Positions 25,512 through 42,186 of a stretch of DNA of 64,000 nt are shown here, piece by piece. The notes under the pieces were generated by a model. The model saw nothing but the letters and a program-made list of their open reading frames with translations, was not told the DNA's origin and did no database searches. Both the position numbers and the translations under genes were made by a program. Location: contig NZ_CP151726.1 of assembly GCF_038443385.1 (NCBI RefSeq), positions 2,170,001-2,234,000 on the forward strand, in the 5' to 3' direction. The DNA comes from Stieleria varia (lineage in GTDB: Bacteria > Planctomycetota > Planctomycetia > Pirellulales > Pirellulaceae). Each line of letters opens with the position of its first letter. Within the stretch, counting starts at the first letter, position 1.

Positions 25512-26129
25512 TCACCTGGCGTCGGACAGTTCTTGCTTCAAACGTCGCAAAACACGCGATTTTGCTTGCCTTACGCTATTGGTCGACATTCCCAGTGAAC
25601 GAGCGATCTCGTCCGTCGTCCGTTCCTCGACGACGGCCATCCAAAAGGCCTGCCAAGTCTGGGACTCAAAATCATTTCGGATCAACTGCATCGCACGGTG
25701 GTACAGCGCCAGCACGTCATTGCGAGTCGCCGCGGAGCTGTCGTCGTCCCAGTGCTCGGGAAGTTGATTCAGCATTCGCAGCGCGGTGTCTCCCCCGGTG
25801 GCATTGAGCCCTTGGGCACCCTGTGGTGAAGCACGGCGGAAATGATCGTGAATCTTGTTGCGGGTGATCGTCCACAGCCAGCCTCGAAATCGGCCTTCTG
25901 CTGCCGGATCGAATCTCTTGATCGCCCTAGCCACTGACGCAAAAACTTCTTGCATGACGTCGGCGGCATCCTCGGGTGACAGCCCGCCTCGACAGGCCCA
26001 CGTGAAAATCAGCGGACCATAAAGATCAACCAAACGTTGCCAAGCGTTGGCGTCGTTGGATCGCACACGCTGAACCAAAGAAGCCGAAGTGCCTGCCGAT
26101 GAGTCGTCCGTGGGATGAGAAGTGTTCAT
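25512..26129 (-). CDS. ECF-type RNA polymerase sigma factor
   Basis: 205 residues from the ATG at 26129; the frame is open ten codons further. Region 2 is seen as LVDLYGPLIFTWACRGGLSPEDAADVMQEVF and WLWTITRNKIHDHFRR; region 4 as RTTDEIARSLGMSTNSVRQAKSRVLRRLKQEL. It is upstream of the kinase with an anti-sigma-like zinc finger, so the pair resembles planctomycete ECF families that are linked to kinases. Target promoters unknown. Confidence 0.93.
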   Translation of the reverse strand: MNTSHPTDDSSAGTSASLVQRVRSNDANAWQRLVDLYGPLIFTWACRGGLSPEDAADVMQEVFASVARAIKRFDPAAEGRFRGWLWTITRNKIHDHFRRASPQGAQGLNATGGDTALRMLNQLPEHWDDDSSAATRNDVLALYHRAMQLIRNDFESQTWQAFWMAVVEERTTDEIARSLGMSTNSVRQAKSRVLRRLKQELSDAR

Positions 26130-26238
26130 CCCGTTATGGTAACAAAATCGACACTTCAAGAGTGGCTGAATAGGGACTGTTGGACGGCGCCCGTTTGTCG
26201 TGAGTCAATGAGTGGGAACGGCAAAACGCTTGGCGAGG

Positions 26239-26292
26239 CACGCTATCGACTTGGAAAGTCGAGCGACAATTGTCGTTCGACTTTCCAAGTCG
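26239..26292. repeat. Family-D palindrome, copy 1
   Basis: Begins GCACGCTATCGACTTGG; bases 26247-26292 form a 46-bp palindrome with one mismatched pair. A diverged copy in the same orientation lies at 28246-28296, and a weak remnant at about 57255-57285. The two clear copies bracket three small genes. Confidence 0.85.
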
Positions 26293-26421
26293 AAAACGAA
26301 CACCACCATCCGCTCAAACACAAGCCATCCACCGTGTGCCGTGCTTACGCTGGGCTGTTCAAAATGTGGTGTTGATATTCTTGTTTCAGTCCATGTTTTT
26401 GTCCCATGCATCGCAATCCGA

Positions 26422-26494
26422 GTGAGCCTCAGGCGCTAGCCGTGGGCCGGTACCACAATCCGCCTCAGGCCCACGGCTAGCGCCTTAGGCTCAC
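26422..26494. repeat. Family-A-like palindrome
   Basis: 27-base arms with one mismatch, starting GTGAGCCTCAGGCGCTAG and ending CGCCTTAGGCTCAC around a 19-base loop. Its outer bases match the family-A repeats (GTGAGCC...GGCTCAC). Confidence 0.85.
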
Positions 26495-26707
26495 TGGGAC
26501 CACCAGTTGCGCTGGGAGAGGTGACAGAAACTGGCGGATCGCCATAGTGCCACAATCCCAAATTTTGAGCTGTCCAGTGATTGTGAGTCGATTGCTATGA
26601 TCGGCCTGCCGATTCGATCTTTCGTGCTGCTCCGAGACTCGCTAGAAAAAAGCCGGCTGAGTTTCTAGCAGCAAAGTGGTTTCGGCGACGTAAATGAGGA
26701 TCGCTAG

Positions 26708-27115
26708 ATGTACGAGGATGAAATCAAGTTTGATCAGTTTCTTTTTGAAATGGACGATGTTTTGGATGTTTTCATCGCGGATGCGGAGAGTGAGGGGGTT
26801 CACCTTGACTATTCGTTGGAAAGCCTTGCTGGTGTCGAGCAGATATTGTTATCGGATGCTTCGGATGACCTCACGTTGGAAAACCGGGCCGCACGGTATG
26901 TTGGGGAGGTGTTTCGCCGATTTGCTGGCGGCACGTGGTGCTTGTGCCAGAAGGGACCAAAGTATCTCTTCGACAACCTTCCGGTCATCGAAGGCCACTC
27001 GTCCAGCCCCGTTGAATTTTGCCCTATCTCGTTGGTAAGACTGTTTAAGATTCGAAAGCGGTGCGGAATGATACAGAAGGCTATTGAATCGAATGCGAAT
27101 AGCTCGTCTTCTTGA
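26708..27115 (+). CDS. Small hypothetical protein 1 of a three-gene cluster
   Basis: 135 residues, acidic N-terminus (MYEDEIKFDQFLFEMDDVLDVF), no signal peptide or membrane segment. GAGG lies about eight bases upstream of the ATG. A mid-region RAARYVGEVFRRFAGGTWCL recalls single-domain proteins often seen near polymorphic-toxin immunity genes, but I cannot name a family. Base composition looks more AT-rich than the neighbouring genes. It is followed after 24 bp by the pentapeptide-like gene. Confidence 0.65.
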   Translation: MYEDEIKFDQFLFEMDDVLDVFIADAESEGVHLDYSLESLAGVEQILLSDASDDLTLENRAARYVGEVFRRFAGGTWCLCQKGPKYLFDNLPVIEGHSSSPVEFCPISLVRLFKIRKRCGMIQKAIESNANSSSS

Positions 27116-27139
27116 CTCTACAGCACCTGGATGTATTGA

Positions 27140-27736
27140 ATGTTGAAAATCTTTGATCAAGAGGTCGTCGATCAGAACATCTGCATTGACGACGAGAAAT
27201 CGTTTTCGGTCATTGGAAAGCACGCCGTTTTGCGAGGTTGCACGATTGACTGTAGGGTTCCAGCACGCGCAGTCTCATTCGACGGAGCACGGCTGGAGGA
27301 CTGTCGCGTCATTGCCAAGAAAACCCTCAAGGGTTTTTCCTGGCTGCGGACCAGACTCATCGATACGACGTTTGAAGGAAACTTTACCGAGAACGAGTTT
27401 GGACATCTGGAGTCAGAAGGTCCTAACGGGCATATAGAAGCATGCTCGTTTGCATCAGCCAATGTTGACGGCTGCCAGTTCTTTGGTTGCGATGTCGACT
27501 CGCTAGTGCTGCCAGGTTGGCCGTATCTGACGATCAAAAACCCGTTTCACGAAGCGGATGCCATGGCAAGTCTCGCAACAATGAGTGATCTTCGTGTGAT
27601 CTGTAAATCTTTCCGATACTGCGATTCGAATGCTGTGGCGATGGTCAATTCTGCGTCGACGCTGGAGAGTGAGTTTGGGATCCCCATTGAAGATCTGAAA
27701 ACGTTTTTTCGTCAGTTTGATCACGTTCTGTTGTAG
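27140..27736 (+). CDS. Small pentapeptide-like/beta-helix hypothetical protein
   Basis: 198 residues, cytoplasmic. The N-terminal two thirds have the alternating pattern of pentapeptide-type right-handed beta helices (ARLEDCRVI, TRLIDTTFEGNF, SANVDGCQFFGCDVDSLVL). The last 60 residues look helical (STLESEFGIPIEDLKTFFRQFDHVLL). No enzyme motif. Pentapeptide proteins include immunity and gyrase-protection factors, so a protective role is possible but unproven. Confidence 0.65.
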   Translation: MLKIFDQEVVDQNICIDDEKSFSVIGKHAVLRGCTIDCRVPARAVSFDGARLEDCRVIAKKTLKGFSWLRTRLIDTTFEGNFTENEFGHLESEGPNGHIEACSFASANVDGCQFFGCDVDSLVLPGWPYLTIKNPFHEADAMASLATMSDLRVICKSFRYCDSNAVAMVNSASTLESEFGIPIEDLKTFFRQFDHVLL

Positions 27737-27842
27737 ATGCATCCATGTGGTACGATTCCGTTGAACGCCACGTGATGCTTGAAGCTTTGTTGAAAAAAAC
27801 AGCGGCGTGAGAAATCGGTCACGAGAGAGGTTTGGAATCAGA

Positions 27843-28094
27843 ATGAACGAGTTGCTAGTCAAAGTTATTCTTGATAATGTCGACTTCTACGCGAACTGTG
27901 ATGATAACGTGCTCGCTCCAGACATTGCCGTCAAGCAATTGGAGAGAATTTCCGCGTCTCTTCGGAAACTGAAGCCCCGGGAACTTAGAGAGTTCGTTTC
28001 GGTAACAGCTTCAATTGCACAGTTGTGTGAGCGGGATGATTCTGATCGTGCAGATTTCTATCGATCAATACCAGAGAACCTGGGGTTGCTGTGA
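27843..28094 (+). CDS. Small helical hypothetical protein 3 of the cluster
   Basis: 83 residues from the ATG at 27843, with GAGG about 11 bases upstream; an upstream in-frame start at 27807 adds only a basic stretch. Sequence is mostly helical and acidic (PDIAVKQLERISASLRKLKPRELREF). I recognise no family by name. Its size and acidity suit an immunity or adaptor protein. It ends about 150 bp before the second family-D repeat. Confidence 0.6.
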   Translation: MNELLVKVILDNVDFYANCDDNVLAPDIAVKQLERISASLRKLKPRELREFVSVTASIAQLCERDDSDRADFYRSIPENLGLL

Positions 28095-28245
28095 CTGGTT
28101 GGAGCTGTCGCATTCGCGATCTACACAAGATTTACTCTTTGTTTCCGCCGGGCTTGCCCCGGTTCGGAGCAACGAAGGTAGCCGTCAGTTGTTTCCTCTG
28201 CCGAGACACGCTCGACGGAAGGAAATGATTAAGCGTACGGTTGCG

Positions 28246-28296
28246 GCACGCTATCGACTTGGAAAGTCAAGCGAATATTGTTCACTCGACTGTTGG
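28246..28296. repeat. Family-D repeat, copy 2
   Basis: Same orientation as 26239-26292 and matching it well through GCACGCTATCGACTTGGAAA; the second arm is more diverged. The stop codon and last codons of the giant minus-strand gene lie inside it. Confidence 0.8.
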
Positions 28297-31200
28297 CCGC
28301 GTGGTGACGTAGGCGATCGCTGCAGCGAGGACGGTTAGCAGCAACAAGGCGATTGCGGATTGCCAGAGGAGCGTTCTGTATTGCGAAGCAAAATCAAGAT
28401 CCAATTCCAAAGGCTCTTTCTCGGCGACTTGAACGCTGCGGTTGAACGTGTACACGTCGCCTTCCTCGGGCAAGCTGATGATGATCGCCTGCGGTGCGGG
28501 CTCGGTGGTGTGCTGATGCTGAACCAATCGTGCCGCGATCTGTTGCAAAACGGCGTTGTCTTCGGTCGTGTTGCCTTGCAGCAGTTGGCTCAATTGCTGA
28601 GGACGAAAGTTCAATTGGTTTTGTTGCAGAACCGGATTGTTGGTCGCGGCGCGTCGCATTTGCTCGTTGTCTACGATCGCAGTGTCTTGGAGACTGTTGT
28701 CGAGAAACAATCGTTGACGGCGAGTGTTGAGTCCGACGATGGCCTGTTGGGTTTGCAAATTCTCCAGTTGCACCCTGGCATCCTCGTTCGAAGCGGCGTC
28801 CAACGCGTATTGGTTGGCAACGCTGTTGAGTGCCCAGCTTGCTTTGGATTGTTCGCCCGCTTGAAGTAGTTCGTTGGCTTGTTCCAGCAGTTCGGCTGCT
28901 TGCCGTGCTTGAACTTCACGCCGACCGCTCACTTTGGACAGGTACGATGCTCGGTCATACTGCCGTTGGATGGATTGCTGAACAAGTTCCAGGTTTCCGT
29001 CGTGATCTACCAACTCGAAACCTTCCGGCGCGATCACGTTCCATTGGATGTTTTCCAGCGGAACGTTCATTTCGGGACTGGTTAGATTCAAGCTGCTGAG
29101 CCGGTCTCCTTTGACCGAATAAACGAATCGAACCTCCGCAGTGCGGTCATCGATCCCGGGCAGAATGTAGAACTGCCATGCGTTGGAGGTTCCGCCCAGC
29201 CGAATCGAATTGACGCTTTCGCCGTTGACGAAAATACTGAGCAGATCACCATCCTGCGGCAGGCCGACACTGAGGCTGCTGCGCTGAATGACTTCCATTG
29301 TGACGTTGACTGCGGTGAGCTGGTCACCTGTGGGCGACAGCACGGTTGTCAGCGTTCCCTTGGCCACTCGCAGTTTCAGTGCGTCGGCGATGGAGTGACG
29401 TTTTGCGTGGACCGTCAGGTTATTCGCAGGGGTCACGGCGCGGAACACCAGCGAAGGTGTGCTGCGGTTCTCGGCTTCGCGTAGCGTTTGTGGAACGGAG
29501 TTCCAATCGGCTCGTTGCCAACCTTGCGTCAGGGTGTCGTGTTCCAGTTCCAGTCGGCCACCGGCGCGGACCGCAAAATAGTAAGCGATCTGGCGAACGC
29601 TGGGGAAACTGGCCGGACGGAGCGTTTCGTCATTGTTCTGACGATCACCCCTGCGTTCGTACTCGATGCGAAATTGAACGTTGCCGACCACGCGGCGCTT
29701 CAATTGGATCTCCCAAATGTCGGAATCGGTAGCGGTTCGGACCAAGTCACTGACCGTACCGCCACTTGCTCGCAGCGTCTTGATCTCGTCTGCATCGGTG
29801 ATCGGCAATGCGACGCGTAGTGATCGAATGGAAGCATTCTGGACTTCAAGGTTCGCGATCAATGCCGTTCGAGTTTGTCCTTCCCGCAAGGTGACCTCAT
29901 GCAGCACTTGGCCGGTTACCCAGGGATCGAGTTTCTCGATGCCCAGAACGAGATTCCAGTCACGTTGCAGCAAACGAAATGCGAGAGCACCCTGAACCAC
30001 GCCGCCCATCGTGCGTGGATCGGTCTCAGAAACGTTTTGTCGAGTAACGGTTCGCAGTCGAATGCCGGTCGTGGGGCGGACGACCATTTCTCCGCTCTGG
30101 CGGGTTGCTTCGTTCAGTTCAAAGTGTGGGACCTGCCATTGGTTGACGTCGGTCGGCGCGATGCCGGACAGAGCAAGCGCAAAGTTCTGTGTGCCGATCG
30201 TCTTGCCGTTAAGGTGTAAAACAATCTGTCGGTTTCCGGAGTCGTTGAGTTCGGCCCAGTGATGCAGCGAGTCACCGGTAAGCGATTCGACCTCCAGTCC
30301 CTCGGGCAGCGGGAAACTGAGTTGAAACAGGCCTGCTCTGGTGATCTCTGCGGCGAAGTTGACGCTCAAGACGACGCGTTCGTCGCCCAATGAGAGTGCT
30401 TGTTTGCTAACGACTCGGACTTCGGGCTCCACGGGGGTGACACGCACGGCCAGTTCGCCACCGTCGGTTCCATACCGGTAGACGCGATGCAAGACGGCTT
30501 GCGACTCCGGTATCAGGCTGGCGTCGAAGTCGCCGAGGTTGACCGCCGACATGTCGGTTGCAGAAAGCGTTTCCGGTTGTGCGTCAGGACCGAACGCGAT
30601 GGCGACCGAGCCGACTTCACCGCTCGCGTCGGCCACTTTTACGGGCGAGAGGTTGACATCGGTCGGCAGGGGATCGAGTCCACGTTGTGTTTCGATCGTG
30701 ACGTCAAACGCCGCCGATTGCGCCGGTTCGATTTCCAGTTTCAAGGCACCGCTGTCCGCGTCGAATTGCCATGAACCGATGGGGCCATTGACTGTGCTGA
30801 CGGTCAAGCCCGTGGGGATCATCACGGTCAACCCACTGACTTGTCCTTGCGAAGTGCGGACGTGAAGGTGATGTCGTCCATCCACCACGCCGGGACCCGG
30901 CAGGTAGAGATTAGAGGCTTCGACAAAGAACTGGGTTTCTTCGGAGGTCACGTCTCGGGCTTGCGGTTTCAGTTGCAAGCTCGCGTTACCTGGCCCCAGC
31001 AGCACCCTGGCTTGGGTGATGTCGTCATCTGATTCGACTTGTTCGATCTGGACGGCCGTTGTGCCAAAGACATCCCAGCCGGCTTCATCGTAACGCAAGT
31101 TGAGTTCTTGGTGCGCTGCCACTCCCGTCAGAACATTCACGCCATCGGCCGGTTTGACCGCTTCGAGCTGATACTCGAAGGTGGCGGTGAACTCGCGAGC

Positions 31201-34200
31201 AGGACGGCTTGCCTTGGGTTGGTCGGTTTCCGATGTTTCGGTTTCCGGTTCGTCTGGTTCTTCGGAAAGTGGAATGCTGGCCACGTACGCCAAGCCTTCC
31301 CCAGGCACTTCCTGCTTGGTCAGACGAAGGCCTGTTGCATCGAAACGAGTCAGGACGGCGGGGGATTTCAGCACGATAAAACGGTCGCCAGGTCGGCCGG
31401 ATAGCGTGATCGTTCCGGTTGCCTTCAGGCGAGCGTCTTGGTGGCTGATCTGCCATTGCTGTGTGATCGAATCGGCTGATTCGAATCCATCGGGTGTCGC
31501 AGCCAAGCAGGAGCCTGCCGTGCTAATAACGATGGCCAGCAAAGCGATTGTGGTCGTCACCGCTCCGGGGCCTGGTTCGGTACCCGGATCGTTCGGTTTT
31601 GCATCCTCTGCGGCCTTGCGTTGCTCGGCCGAGTTTTTCCACCAGAGGCGTAGCTCGCGCAGGCCGTCCAACGCAGGCTGCAGGAAGAGCAAAACACCGA
31701 TGGCCAGTGCCAACAGAGCAAAGAACCACGAGGCTCCGTCACCTTGCCACAACACACCCAACGCGATCAGCAGCATGCCGAGACATCGAAGGGATGTCTT
31801 GGGTAGGGTCTCAAGTTTTCGGAATGAAAAGCCCACGGCTAAGGCCCCCGCCAGCGCGCAGGTCAGCCCCATCCAGGAAAGATTGACTCGCCAGAGTGGC
31901 GTATTGCTGACAGCGATCTCTACCGTTTCACCGGCGGCCAGGATAGGAATGCTGACTTCCAACGGCGCTGGCGGACCGGCATCGGACAGGGCCAGCAATG
32001 CGGTCGCGAATGAGACGACGATCGCGAACGCCAAGCTGAGCAGTCCCCAAGCACGTAGAGAACTCGACTTGCCACGTGTCCAAATTCCGAATATGGCAAA
32101 CAGACCGATCATCAGCAGCGACAGCAAACCATGCTTGGTCAGCCAGTGGAACCCTGTCGGTCGCGAGACAGGCGTGGGAGGTGTCACGGTTCCGCCGCTG
32201 GGCAACAACGCGTGTTCTTCGTCCCCGCTGATGTTCCATTGTGTTTTCAGCAAGGGCGCATCGACGACCGGCAGCGTGAGGACCGGCCTGGATTCTCTGA
32301 CGGTCGGTTTCCCCAATCGCAAGCTGACTTCCACCGGAACGTTGGGATCCGTTCCCCCGGGCAACGGAATCAAGGTTGCATCGTCGGATTGTCGTGCGGT
32401 CACCGGTTGGCCGTTGACGGAGACGGCCCAAAGTCGAACCGGATCGGCGGGGATCTGGATTCGAAAAGTGCGTCGGCCGCGAGTCTTGACGTAGTAAAGC
32501 ACGTCGGTCACCAACTCACCATCGGCCGATACCCGGCTATTGGCTTCCGAAAACTCGACCACTTGCGTCACCGTGGTGCCTGGCTGGAACCAGTTAACTT
32601 TCAGATTCAGATCAAACGGACGATCGGTGTACTGCCAAGTGCCCAGTGGCGGCGCTGTACTCAGCAAACGAAACTCGGCGGGCAATTCGAGTGGATCGAG
32701 TTTCAGCATGTCCTCTGAGATCGAAACGGTTTCGATTTCGACTTGCATCGGACTGACGACTTGGATGTAGCCACGCTCACCTTGCACATCGGTGGGTGAG
32801 ATTTGACCGGCTTGGAACGTCCCTTTGCTCTTGTCTGGCTTTTCCTCAAAAGTCACCAGCAGCGTATGCGCTCCCATCACGGGTTGATGCAGCGAAACGA
32901 TCAGCATGTCGCCTTCACGCCGCCAAGTCCGAACGTCTTGGCCATCGACCATCACATTGCCCAGCGACTGCGGAACAGCGATCGTCCACTCCGACACAGG
33001 TGATCCGGTGACGAAGTAATTGATCAGGGCACTGCCGTAAACCGTTTCTTGGCTCAACGAGTACAGGTGAAACACGTCGGACTGCACGCTGCGGTCCAGC
33101 AATTCCACTTGCATTGTGGCGGACCAGAGCGGCTGACGAATACGGAAAGCCTGTTGTAAATGAGGTGTCGGTTTGGGGAAATACGACAACGGTTTTTCCA
33201 CCAGCAGATCTGCTTGCCCCACTGAAACTCGAAATCCTGGTGCGCCAACGACGCCGATATCACCGCGGACGTTTTTTGCACCGGGAAAATCGATGCGTGG
33301 CAGCAGCCAGTCGCCAGCGGTAGCTACCTCGCTTTTCTCTAGATGCAACGAAACGAGTTGTCGCCCCGTGATGTCTTGGCCGAAGATGATTTTCAAATTG
33401 CGTCTGCCGTCCTGGACCGCAGTGGCCGCGATGTAGTCGGCGACGCTCGCGCCGGTAACCGCGACCACGCTGTAGTCGGACGGGATATCGAAATCCCACT
33501 CGCGAATAGGTGCTTCACGGACATCCAACTCGATGTCCGCCGTGATCACGCGATCGGTTTCGGCGAGTTGATAGACAACCAGCTCGGAGATGTTGACTTC
33601 CGGTTCGATACGATCCGCGGCCACGGTAAACGAATGCTCGGCGGCAGGGAAACGATAGACGAACACCTGACGTGCTGCTATCGGCTCCGCCGGAAATTGC
33701 TCGGGTGCCAACTGGGTCAATCCACTCAGAGCGGTCGGTTCCAAGCGGACCGATCCGTCATTGGCCAGCCTCAGGTATCCTGAATGACGAATCGCACCAA
33801 TGGGATTGAGTCTCAGGCCTTCCACTCGAACCGGCAGGGCGGTCAAAGGAGTCTGGCTGCGGACATGGATTTGACCGGTCAGTGTGATCGGCTGACTGAG
33901 CGTGACATCCAGTTGGCGAGATTGTCCCTGATCGACGACGTTCCAAGCGACGATGTTGGTGCCTTGAACGTCCAGGATTTCGCCGGGACCTTGCAGCAAG
34001 ATGCTCAGCGATTTCAGCTCTCCCTGCAGGACTTGATAGTCGATTCGGTGGTCCTGACGCATCAGCCCCGCGCCGACTCGTGTTTCGATTTGGCCGGTGG
34101 TGGTGAAGAAAAGTTTGCCCTCGCCAGCCTTGCGAGCCATCTTCCAATTCAACTTCGCCCGCCCAGTCGCGGGCAAGAACCCCAACCAGTTGTCTTGGTC

Positions 34201-35256
34201 ACGTATTGGAACCAAGGAATTTTGGTCGGACTGGAATTCCAGATCGGCTGGCAGGCCCTCGATCGTCATCGGGACGACGGCGCTGGCACCGATCGTAAAA
34301 TCCATGCTGCGACCGCTCGCGTTCGATCCTGTTAAGGCAGCGACGAAGTCCAGCGACACGGGGAAAGTGCCGGGCTCAGCGAACACCAATCGGTAGACGG
34401 GTCGATCGTCTTGGGTGGTCAGCCGCAAGCGATAATGAGGATCATCGGGAACGACATTGATCGCTGCGTTGCCCGAGAGAATGCTGATCTCCGCGTCGGG
34501 CTCCGTCACCACCGCGGTACCGCGAAACTGAAGGTTGATGGACTCGCCGTTGGGATGAACGGTGCCCTTGAGCGTCGTCTCGATCAACTCAACCGGTCCG
34601 GGGGCTGCCCCGTTGCGGTTGAGTGAAAGTTTGATTTGCCCGCCGGTCGTTGTTTGGAAACGATTGGACTGATCGGTGTCGTCCAAGGGAGCAAACCCGG
34701 CGGCTTCTGTGACGGTTCCCTGAACCCCCGTCGCGTAATGAATGCTGACGATGGAATTGAAACCGACTGATTCGCCTGGGGTCAAGTGAGTCAGTTCGAT
34801 CGAGGCCGGTAGCTGAAGTGTCTTCTCTGGCGAACGCAGTTTGACCTGTGCTGTGATGTCCCTGGCGTTCTCCGTGAGTTTCAAATCCAGATAACGCTTT
34901 TCGCCTTCTTGACGCACCGACCACGACTGGATGATCTCTCCTTGCACGTCGGTCACCCGATCGGAACCATGCAGTCCGAAACTGACCGAGTCTGCATTTC
35001 CTTGGATGACTTTGATCGACAAGTCAACCGTTTGCTCAATGGATTGCGGTCCGACCTGGACGTTCGCCGTGGCGTTGGCTGTGTAGAACACCGGTGGCTT
35101 TGGCAATTGCCCTCGTGCTTCGACCACGATGCTTCCTGTGCCGTCGCCGCCGATGGAACTGCTGAAGGTGGCTTGATCGGCGTCTTCCTGTGCAATCGCT
35201 GGTACGTTGATCAACCCGATGAATGCCAGCAGGCAGAGATGTTGCAATGGACGCAT
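28282..35256 (-). CDS. Giant exported/membrane protein (2324 residues)
   Basis: Unrecognised function. Signal peptide at about 1-22 (HLCLLAFIGLINVPAIAQ). Residues about 25-1030 are beta-rich, with repeated modules of similar style (FRIRQPLWSATMQVELLDRSVQSDVFHLY). A membrane cluster of several hydrophobic helices spans about 1035-1260, its last helix (TTTIALLAIVISTAGSCLAATPDG) looking like a second signal peptide. Residues about 1265-2285 are again beta-rich, with a Gln-rich helical stretch near 2120-2260, and a C-terminal helix (LLWQSAIALLLLTVLAAAIAYV). The layout suggests two exported halves joined by a membrane block. It is monocistronic as far as seen. Confidence 0.85.
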   Translation of the reverse strand: MRPLQHLCLLAFIGLINVPAIAQEDADQATFSSSIGGDGTGSIVVEARGQLPKPPVFYTANATANVQVGPQSIEQTVDLSIKVIQGNADSVSFGLHGSDRVTDVQGEIIQSWSVRQEGEKRYLDLKLTENARDITAQVKLRSPEKTLQLPASIELTHLTPGESVGFNSIVSIHYATGVQGTVTEAAGFAPLDDTDQSNRFQTTTGGQIKLSLNRNGAAPGPVELIETTLKGTVHPNGESINLQFRGTAVVTEPDAEISILSGNAAINVVPDDPHYRLRLTTQDDRPVYRLVFAEPGTFPVSLDFVAALTGSNASGRSMDFTIGASAVVPMTIEGLPADLEFQSDQNSLVPIRDQDNWLGFLPATGRAKLNWKMARKAGEGKLFFTTTGQIETRVGAGLMRQDHRIDYQVLQGELKSLSILLQGPGEILDVQGTNIVAWNVVDQGQSRQLDVTLSQPITLTGQIHVRSQTPLTALPVRVEGLRLNPIGAIRHSGYLRLANDGSVRLEPTALSGLTQLAPEQFPAEPIAARQVFVYRFPAAEHSFTVAADRIEPEVNISELVVYQLAETDRVITADIELDVREAPIREWDFDIPSDYSVVAVTGASVADYIAATAVQDGRRNLKIIFGQDITGRQLVSLHLEKSEVATAGDWLLPRIDFPGAKNVRGDIGVVGAPGFRVSVGQADLLVEKPLSYFPKPTPHLQQAFRIRQPLWSATMQVELLDRSVQSDVFHLYSLSQETVYGSALINYFVTGSPVSEWTIAVPQSLGNVMVDGQDVRTWRREGDMLIVSLHQPVMGAHTLLVTFEEKPDKSKGTFQAGQISPTDVQGERGYIQVVSPMQVEIETVSISEDMLKLDPLELPAEFRLLSTAPPLGTWQYTDRPFDLNLKVNWFQPGTTVTQVVEFSEANSRVSADGELVTDVLYYVKTRGRRTFRIQIPADPVRLWAVSVNGQPVTARQSDDATLIPLPGGTDPNVPVEVSLRLGKPTVRESRPVLTLPVVDAPLLKTQWNISGDEEHALLPSGGTVTPPTPVSRPTGFHWLTKHGLLSLLMIGLFAIFGIWTRGKSSSLRAWGLLSLAFAIVVSFATALLALSDAGPPAPLEVSIPILAAGETVEIAVSNTPLWRVNLSWMGLTCALAGALAVGFSFRKLETLPKTSLRCLGMLLIALGVLWQGDGASWFFALLALAIGVLLFLQPALDGLRELRLWWKNSAEQRKAAEDAKPNDPGTEPGPGAVTTTIALLAIVISTAGSCLAATPDGFESADSITQQWQISHQDARLKATGTITLSGRPGDRFIVLKSPAVLTRFDATGLRLTKQEVPGEGLAYVASIPLSEEPDEPETETSETDQPKASRPAREFTATFEYQLEAVKPADGVNVLTGVAAHQELNLRYDEAGWDVFGTTAVQIEQVESDDDITQARVLLGPGNASLQLKPQARDVTSEETQFFVEASNLYLPGPGVVDGRHHLHVRTSQGQVSGLTVMIPTGLTVSTVNGPIGSWQFDADSGALKLEIEPAQSAAFDVTIETQRGLDPLPTDVNLSPVKVADASGEVGSVAIAFGPDAQPETLSATDMSAVNLGDFDASLIPESQAVLHRVYRYGTDGGELAVRVTPVEPEVRVVSKQALSLGDERVVLSVNFAAEITRAGLFQLSFPLPEGLEVESLTGDSLHHWAELNDSGNRQIVLHLNGKTIGTQNFALALSGIAPTDVNQWQVPHFELNEATRQSGEMVVRPTTGIRLRTVTRQNVSETDPRTMGGVVQGALAFRLLQRDWNLVLGIEKLDPWVTGQVLHEVTLREGQTRTALIANLEVQNASIRSLRVALPITDADEIKTLRASGGTVSDLVRTATDSDIWEIQLKRRVVGNVQFRIEYERRGDRQNNDETLRPASFPSVRQIAYYFAVRAGGRLELEHDTLTQGWQRADWNSVPQTLREAENRSTPSLVFRAVTPANNLTVHAKRHSIADALKLRVAKGTLTTVLSPTGDQLTAVNVTMEVIQRSSLSVGLPQDGDLLSIFVNGESVNSIRLGGTSNAWQFYILPGIDDRTAEVRFVYSVKGDRLSSLNLTSPEMNVPLENIQWNVIAPEGFELVDHDGNLELVQQSIQRQYDRASYLSKVSGRREVQARQAAELLEQANELLQAGEQSKASWALNSVANQYALDAASNEDARVQLENLQTQQAIVGLNTRRQRLFLDNSLQDTAIVDNEQMRRAATNNPVLQQNQLNFRPQQLSQLLQGNTTEDNAVLQQIAARLVQHQHTTEPAPQAIIISLPEEGDVYTFNRSVQVAEKEPLELDLDFASQYRTLLWQSAIALLLLTVLAAAIAYVTTRPTVE

Positions 35257-40711: not shown

Positions 40712-42186
40712 CAATACCGTTCAATGTTTTCATAAATCGCGGCTCCCGCTAGAGTTAGGTTGTCTTACCAACTAGCCTCGCAAGGAGCCGCGACATGAAT
40801 GGGCAAGGATGCTCTGACTTCTCTTCGGAAGTCAATGGAAGAATTTTAGATCGTATTGCTGGACTCGAAAAGATCATTTCGCCTGAGCTTGTTGAGCAAG
40901 CACTTGTCGATACAGGCAAGCAGACCACGCGGGTTTGCAGACTGACTAACGAAGTCATGATTTGGGTTGTTTTGGCAATGGGCCTTTTTACCGAACTACC
41001 GATCAGGCAAGTCTTCAAGGCGTGTCGCCGGCTGCGGCATGGAGAGAAATCGCCAGCCAGGTCGAGTCTGTGTATGGCACGTCAAAGACTCGGCAGCGAA
41101 CCGCTCGTTGCCTTGCACAGTTTGGTGGTCCGCCCATTGGCCACACCGCAAACGCTCGGTGCGTTCTATCGCGGGATGCGCAAAGTCGGCATCGACGGCA
41201 CGGTTCTTGATGCTCCGGACTGCGATGCGCATCAGCACTTCGGACGCTCATCGGGAAGTCGTGGTGAAGGCCCCTTTCCTCAAGTTCGCAAAGTCAGTCT
41301 CGTCGAACTGGGAACTCACATCGAATTCGCTTTCGTTTATGGAGGCTGGAAAGACTCTGAAAAGAAGCTCGTTGAGCAGCTTTGGGAACACATTCCCGAC
41401 GATGCGTTGTTGATCGAAGACCGAGGCTTCTTTAGCTACAAACACTGGAAATTACTGCATGAAAAGCACAAGTTGCTCATTCGCATCCAGAAATCGATGG
41501 TGTTTAAACCGATCAAATATTTCGCCGATGGCTCGTTCCTGGCGAAGGTCTATCCAAGCAACTGGTATCGCGAAAATGACAAGCAAGGCATCCTCGTTCG
41601 CGTGATCGAATACAAGCTCGACGATCCTCAACGAGTCGGCCATGATGAGGTCCATCGCTTGATGACCAACCTGCTTGACCCCGAGGAGTTTCCGGCCATG
41701 GAGCTAATCATGGAGTACCACGAACGTTGGGAAGAAGAACTCGTCTTTGATGAGCAGAAGACTCACCAAGATCCTTGTCGCGCCGAGAAGACAACGAATC
41801 TTCGCAGCGAAACGACCGACGGTTTGAAGCAGGAGTTGTATGCGATGTCGCTGGGACATTTCGTGGTTCGTGCGTTGATGCTCGAAGCGGCGGCCGAAGC
41901 AAACATCGACGTGGATCGGTTGTCGTTCAAGGGTTCCTTCCAGATACTCAAGACCCGCTTACCCGAATGCGATCCTAGCAATGAAGTGAAATTTTCGCAG
42001 TGGTTCGCGGCCGTCGTATGGGAGATCAGTTGCGAGCGAATCCCTGCACGTCGCAACCGTATCAACCCGCGTGTGATCAAACGCAAGATGTCCCGCTGGA
42101 ACAAATGCCGCCCCAAACACCGAAAGCAAAAACCGTTGACCAAAACCTTTGCCCAGACAGTAGTTATGATTCATTGAACGGTATTG
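40712..42186 (+). mobile_element. IS4-family insertion sequence, 1475 bp, intact
   Basis: Terminal inverted repeats of 15 bases (CAATACCGTTCAATG at 40712-40726; complement at 42172-42186). It is flanked by a 10-bp direct repeat TCGTTAAACG at 40702-40711 and 42187-42196, the target-site duplication. One transposase gene fills it. Removing the element and one duplication restores a continuous repeat unit joined to the nagA 3' end. Size and duplication length fit the IS4 family. Confidence 0.95.
40795..42177 (+). CDS. IS4-family DDE transposase
   Basis: 460 residues, complete. Catalytic triad readable as Asp134 (VGIDGTVLDAPD), Asp209 (LLIEDRGFFS) and Glu315 in the IS4 signature Y-x2-R-x3-E-x6-K (Tyr308, Arg311, Glu315, Lys322; YHERWEEELVFDEQK). 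The N-terminal 120 residues are a helical DNA-binding region, the C-terminus is very basic. The stop codon lies in the right inverted repeat and overlaps the converging nagA stop by 7 bp. No frameshift, so it may be active. Confidence 0.95.
   Translation: MNGQGCSDFSSEVNGRILDRIAGLEKIISPELVEQALVDTGKQTTRVCRLTNEVMIWVVLAMGLFTELPIRQVFKACRRLRHGEKSPARSSLCMARQRLGSEPLVALHSLVVRPLATPQTLGAFYRGMRKVGIDGTVLDAPDCDAHQHFGRSSGSRGEGPFPQVRKVSLVELGTHIEFAFVYGGWKDSEKKLVEQLWEHIPDDALLIEDRGFFSYKHWKLLHEKHKLLIRIQKSMVFKPIKYFADGSFLAKVYPSNWYRENDKQGILVRVIEYKLDDPQRVGHDEVHRLMTNLLDPEEFPAMELIMEYHERWEEELVFDEQKTHQDPCRAEKTTNLRSETTDGLKQELYAMSLGHFVVRALMLEAAAEANIDVDRLSFKGSFQILKTRLPECDPSNEVKFSQWFAAVVWEISCERIPARRNRINPRVIKRKMSRWNKCRPKHRKQKPLTKTFAQTVVMIH

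Follow-up and report, generated by a model that had tools for sequence, protein, structure and literature searches.

Three short genes lie side by side in the genome of Stieleria varia (9.72 Mb, one contig), bracketed by a palindromic repeat that is present in two copies, and the locus raises the question of what such a group of small acidic proteins is for. The first-pass annotation had proposed a transferable cassette, perhaps carrying orphan immunity or anti-phage factors. We examined the genes, their surroundings and their relatives, starting from the whole stretch of 64 kb that was analysed (hereafter the window).

Gene calls, base composition and family searches

The locus holds three complete open reading frames, all on the + strand as had been described: gene 1 (P0001, 135 aa; positions 26708-27115) and gene 2 (P0002, 198 aa; 27140-27736; weakly pentapeptide-like), both encoding putative immunity proteins, and gene 3 (P0003, 83 aa; 27843-28094), encoding a predicted acidic four-helix bundle, with gaps of 24 bp between genes 1 and 2 and of 106 bp between genes 2 and 3. 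All three are very likely to be real genes because each has relatives in other genomes. The low GC content ascribed to them was borne out, as was the acidity, which had been noted for two of them: the GC content is 0.490, 0.494 and 0.464 for genes 1, 2 and 3, respectively (0.46-0.49 against 0.56 for the window), and the pI is 4.55, 4.90 and 4.68. Among 34 ORFs of at least 150 aa, picked mechanically from the window with gene 2 among them (mean GC, 0.566), none is lower in GC than genes 1-3, and 0.3% of sliding windows of cassette length are equally low, counting those that overlap the cassette itself. For the ribosome-binding sites, which had been claimed for each gene, the claim holds in part: gene 1 carries a clear GAGG 8 nt upstream, the sole clear Shine-Dalgarno sequence of the three, and gene 3 carries GAGG 12 nt upstream of its start codon, but no clear site was found upstream of gene 2. 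Promoter and terminator scans at the locus gave scores not above those of shuffles, and an Rfam search of 25-29.5 kb of the window gave no match.

None of the three proteins reaches the cut-off of a Pfam model, and neither NCBIfam nor PADLOC gave a match at E up to 1; Pfam searches of their relatives yielded no common family above cut-off, and sequence searches against solved structures gave nothing useful. The three proteins differ in length and have no common family match (the pairwise blastp table comprises pairs from different loci, same-locus pairs being left out), and a reliable structure model was obtained for gene 3 only. Structure prediction, which the first-pass annotation had put forward as a check, was thus informative for one protein: the AlphaFold model of gene 3 (two alignment rows) is a confident four-helix bundle (pLDDT 87), but that of gene 2, run alone, is unusable (pLDDT 30). 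Foldseek with the gene 3 model gave no significant match (best E, 2.4 in PDB and 0.64 in BFVD), and the best Z score in VIA, 6.6, falls among the values usual for common helical bundles; despite the absence of significant structural matches we do not read gene 3 as a new fold.

Flanking genes and palindromic repeats

On the left, the locus is flanked by a sigma-70 family (ECF-type) gene (25512-26159, - strand), of which a close orthologue (67%) was found in one of 13 genus-mates (G001), and on the right by a gene for a 2324-aa protein (28282-35256, - strand), which is present in 11 of the 13 and has no Pfam match at E 0.001. In the single genus-mate with the left-flank orthologue, this gene sits elsewhere and not beside the right-flank gene, and in all nine regions fetched from the 11 genus-mates that carry the right flank, the left-flank gene is absent beyond it. 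The right-flank gene is followed in six of these nine by an ORF of about 549 aa resembling a membrane protein, for which a search of 1.97-2.31 Mb of the S. varia genome found no counterpart. No empty site was found in the relatives examined because the flanks are arranged differently there, and therefore neither an insertion nor a loss can be dated.

The repeat at the two ends, designated family D, was reported as two direct copies flanking the genes. The left copy is indeed a full dispersed element of about 140 bp (26199-26335, outer limits approximate), the core palindrome of which (26241-26298) consists of 2 x 29 nt with arms 90% complementary; the right copy, however, is only a 37-nt half (28245-28281, + strand, 92% identical) with no good second arm, ending where the stop codon of the 2324-aa gene starts. 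Matches to the family-D core number three in the window, against 0.05 expected by chance, two of them being the arms of the left copy. A second dispersed REP-like element of about 235 bp (26343-26578), with 32-nt inverted arms at 26417-26448 and 26468-26499, lies between the left copy and gene 1; it has many genomic copies, some of them in tandem arrays of units of about 160 bp.

The bracketing by family D is notable because no further site was found in the 64-kb window, and it could point, together with the low GC content and the patchy presence of the genes, to a discrete mobile cassette moved by the flanking repeats. We regard this as quite unlikely. The full family-D element has at least 40 copies in the S. 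varia genome, some of them clustered (40 of 331 candidates were scored). The flanks of 30 inspected copies, the present locus included, have a mean GC of 0.566, and the side at the present locus (0.502) is the lowest of the 60 sides. Because of these genomic copies, and because the inspected ones lie in surroundings of normal GC, family D does not define a cassette; as a general rule, its role as cassette ends was rejected from the 30 inspected copies, and we take the repeats, by their appearance, as REP-like intergenic elements. Furthermore, the right copy is a half, no empty site was seen, and a search for recombinases among ten proteins between 14940 and 42174 found none apart from an IS4-type transposase. 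The gene for this transposase lies at 40795-42177, 12.5 kb from the three genes. The transferable cassette bounded by repeats, as originally proposed, is accordingly not upheld.

Toxin-linked relatives of the three genes

The distribution of the genes was followed in three sets of genomes (59 relatives, 13 genus-mates and 391 genomes of the phylum), with the S. varia genome itself excluded from all counts. Within the 59 relatives, gene 3 has a match in two genomes (G008 and G002), gene 2 in one only (G032, at two places) and gene 1 no trusted match; a gene 1 match in G004 (E=1.3e-4, with a stop) was judged to be due to chance, since another ORF overlaps there. The phylum set gave matches to gene 1 in 11 genomes at E up to 0.01, to gene 2 in two, and to gene 3 in three, of which the match in G115 is weak (E=5.8e-4). 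Five of the gene 1 matches were aligned (L108-L112; E 1.8e-17 to 0.0014) and two partial ones were inspected outside the alignment (L113, E=1.6e-6; L114, E=0.002), those in the remaining genomes being partial with E 0.002 to 0.008. Neither gene 2 nor a trusted gene 1 is present in any of the 13 genus-mates, and gene 3 occurs in two of them, elsewhere in the genome; with the low GC content, this supports the accessory nature that the first-pass annotation had assigned to the locus. Searches of broader genome contigs with relatives of gene 2 gave nothing, and those with relatives of gene 3 gave one locus, on a contig of 48,750 bases resembling that of G008.

No relatives of genes 1-3 were found in viral contigs and no match in phage records, and plasmid records gave distant matches only (four for gene 1, one for gene 2 and six for gene 3); phage or plasmid cargo was rejected on these grounds. 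The same searches bear on the suggestion of anti-phage factors, for which only the small size, the acidity and the accessory nature of the genes speak. With no match in PADLOC, phage records or viral contigs, and with relatives found in toxin/immunity settings wherever a setting is recognisable, we consider this function highly improbable.

In two genus-mates (G008 and G002), the relatives of gene 3 (46% and 42% identity) each share the bases of an ATGA with a giant open frame, their start overlapping its stop; these frames are of 13,490 and 12,782 aa, respectively. The giant protein of G008 contains PT-HINT (E=2.7e-17), that of G002 is similar to HINT segments, and their toxin tips are 67% identical to each other. 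Immunity genes usually come directly after their toxin genes in this way. No family was matched in a Pfam search of these tips, in which a D...DRK pattern was read by eye as restriction-endonuclease-like. A profile of the tip (A1) gave no match in the S. varia genome (19 candidates scored), and a match in G005 covers only the linker and the first part of the tip (1-67). A further relative of gene 3, on a Pantoea plasmid, sits among pre-toxin, nuclease and immunity genes that form an array. Altogether, ten neighbourhoods of gene 3 relatives were inspected (five planctomycete and five plasmid), of which three (G008, G002 and Pantoea) contain a toxin or a toxin/immunity array and seven show no toxin nearby, the plasmid loci being judged from incomplete gene tables.

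For gene 1, a relative in G340 begins 22 bp downstream of a PT-HINT-containing ORF of 1023 aa (E=3.6e-22), the tip of which shows, by eye, an E-x-K-like pattern; gene 1 is 29% identical (blastp) to this toxin-adjoining relative. In Rhizobium beringeri, a relative has a PT-HINT toxin on one side and Imm63 on the other, further small genes intervening. These are the two cases with a toxin among nine neighbourhoods inspected (L108-L114, L120 and L121); in the other seven no toxin is nearby, three of them (L110-L112) sharing one common neighbourhood. The Pfam family DUF6278 was matched by gene 1 with 19.1 bits, below the cut-off of 26.4, and by one of eight members of the gene 1 family at E up to 0.1; no mention of DUF6278 was found in the literature searched.

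Gene 2 had been called pentapeptide-like, and a match to the pentapeptide family PF13576 does exist, but at 16.7 bits it falls short of the cut-off of 27, as do weak matches in other members. Pentapeptide proteins of the Qnr/MfpA type shield DNA gyrase. Together with a marginal match to QnrB1 (E=4.7), the weak pentapeptide matches could be taken to mean that gene 2 alone is such a gyrase-shielding protein, unrelated to its neighbours; we hold this to be very unlikely, since the matches stay below the cut-off and relatives of gene 2 are found repeatedly near toxin or immunity genes. Of seven neighbourhoods inspected, five have clear toxin or immunity genes and two are weak cases. In G441 (L106 and L107), broken relatives of gene 2 lie inside arrays with PT-HINT, SUKH and ankyrin genes, in which nine leader-bearing toxin genes were counted. 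The short HINT toxins of these arrays share one common N-terminal leader and differ in their tips, several being followed by immunity-type genes. In L062, a relative lies 3.7 kb from a Tox-SHH toxin and 7.7 kb from Imm11 (PT-HINT being below the cut-off). In L104, a single ORF separates the gene 2 relative from a relative (73-81%) of an immunity-type gene of L107, which there follows a GH-E-like ORF (the GH-E match being below the cut-off). In Variovorax, a weak match to gene 2 (25% identity) lies next to a SUKH gene; a single ORF beside this gene (L122:4699-7056) fuses an EarP-like segment with the gene-2-like segment. In the two weak cases, a gene related to a toxin-linked one lies at a distance of about 9 kb (L061), or an ORF with ankyrin matches below the cut-off is nearby (L105). 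No intact relative directly behind a toxin tail was found in the seven neighbourhoods, and for this reason gene 2 is the least certain of the three.

As a control, HINT segments were counted by tblastn with two query segments (one-sided Fisher test). HINT was found in 6 of 18 loci around the relatives and in 1 of 25 control loci (p=0.015), the query segments having come from L063 and L107, both among the six positive loci. The count falls to 4 of 16 (p=0.067) when these two are left out, and to 3 of 15 (p=0.14) when L106, from the same genome as L107, is left out too. In the sole control locus with HINT (L163), the match is to a true toxin gene that S. varia itself carries. The counts are only suggestive, and the case rests on the direct toxin adjacencies.

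The S. varia genome itself carries six PT-HINT matches in five frames, five of the matches being above the cut-off, and the HINT gene of L163 is just under it (26.7 against 27.7 bits). Orphan status was checked for gene 3 by a search of the whole genome and for gene 1 against six of the own toxins. When the tips of these six were compared with those paired with gene 1 or gene 3, no real similarity emerged (best E, 0.08). One of the own toxin loci (about 1,804,000-1,806,000; L154 and L156) is an open frame of 13,995 aa with two PT-HINT matches, followed by an ORF of 221 aa that has no Pfam match of note; this 221-aa protein was tried as a relative of gene 2 and rejected (hhalign probability, 0.1). 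At another (L163:13535-16853, about 2.10 Mb, 90 kb from the three genes), an immunity-type gene and then a second, related gene come after a HINT-type toxin ORF. A segment of about 770 bp that spans the gene ends occurs twice here, the copies being 98-100% identical and offset by 1312 bp; this has the look of a tandem duplication making a spare immunity gene.

Probable orphan immunity and known systems

We conclude, with a probability of roughly 0.7, that genes 1-3 form a small heterogeneous polyimmunity locus of orphan immunity genes. The assignment of each gene to an immunity family draws support from what lies beside its relatives (HINT toxins and toxin/immunity arrays), no curated immunity model having been matched; of the functions first suggested for the locus, orphan immunity is the one in agreement with these data. 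According to this model, the three genes would encode immunity proteins from three different families, each retained although its toxin is absent, and they would be co-transcribed. If a competitor met today delivered the matching polymorphic toxin, which for genes 1 and 3 is probably a HINT-domain protein with a nuclease-type tip, we infer that the tip would be bound and thereby blocked by the immunity protein.

The locus might instead be the leftover of a former toxin locus, with the toxins lost and the immunity genes remaining as passengers of no present use. It is true that no toxin remains at the locus, that its flanks are rearranged relative to the genus-mates and that the gene 2 relatives in G441 are already broken; the three frames are nevertheless complete, inspection of the translated intergenic gaps by eye revealed no toxin remnant, and the loss of a single toxin would account less well than an assembled array for three apparently unrelated families side by side, so that we judge such a decay product unlikely. 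Under the polyimmunity reading, genes 1 and 3 each provide a toxin/immunity pair that can be tested, and gene 2 adds a candidate immunity family of pentapeptide-like type. Giant HINT-domain toxins occur in planctomycetes, and a cluster of orphan antidotes, if true, would mean that these bacteria also store protection against rivals.

Among known systems, the rAID islands of Bacteroidales (PMC12247911, a preprint) are similar in having co-oriented short genes with GC below that of the genome and in their low identity to toxin-linked copies (here 42-46% for gene 3 and 29% for gene 1). Their genes are of about 100-300 codons, compared with 135, 198 and 83 here, gene 3 being slightly short. They differ from the present locus in an adjacent tyrosine recombinase, none being found here in the ten proteins scanned between 14940 and 42174, in a GC below 41%, compared with 0.464-0.494 here, and possibly in conserved intergenic motifs, of which none was noticed on inspection of the gaps here. 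We do not call the locus a rAID island because the recombinase and the GC level are missing. A bolder proposal, that recombination between dispersed palindromic repeats brought together three unnamed immunity families, one of them beta-helical and pentapeptide-like, in a recombinase-free planctomycete counterpart of rAID, appears doubtful. The toxin-tip/immunity array of the Pantoea plasmid, which also holds a gene 3 relative, differs in that it still carries toxin pieces, none of which were recognised at the present locus.

The closest description is that of polyimmunity loci (Zhang et al. 2012, PMC3482391), i.e., uninterrupted, co-oriented and closely spaced immunity genes, the heterogeneous ones of which hold unrelated families. 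In the part of that paper available, extended loci of at least four genes are assigned to some proteobacteria, bacteroidetes, firmicutes and actinobacteria, planctomycetes not being named there, and the word 'pentapeptide' was not found in the same text. The present locus differs from those described in having only three genes, none matching a named immunity family. It resembles the heterogeneous polyimmunity loci of that description in its short co-oriented genes, small gaps, patchy presence and lack of an intervening toxin, as well as in its apparently unrelated putative immunity families. The locus would thus be of a polyimmunity kind already known, built from three protein families that match no named family in the libraries searched.
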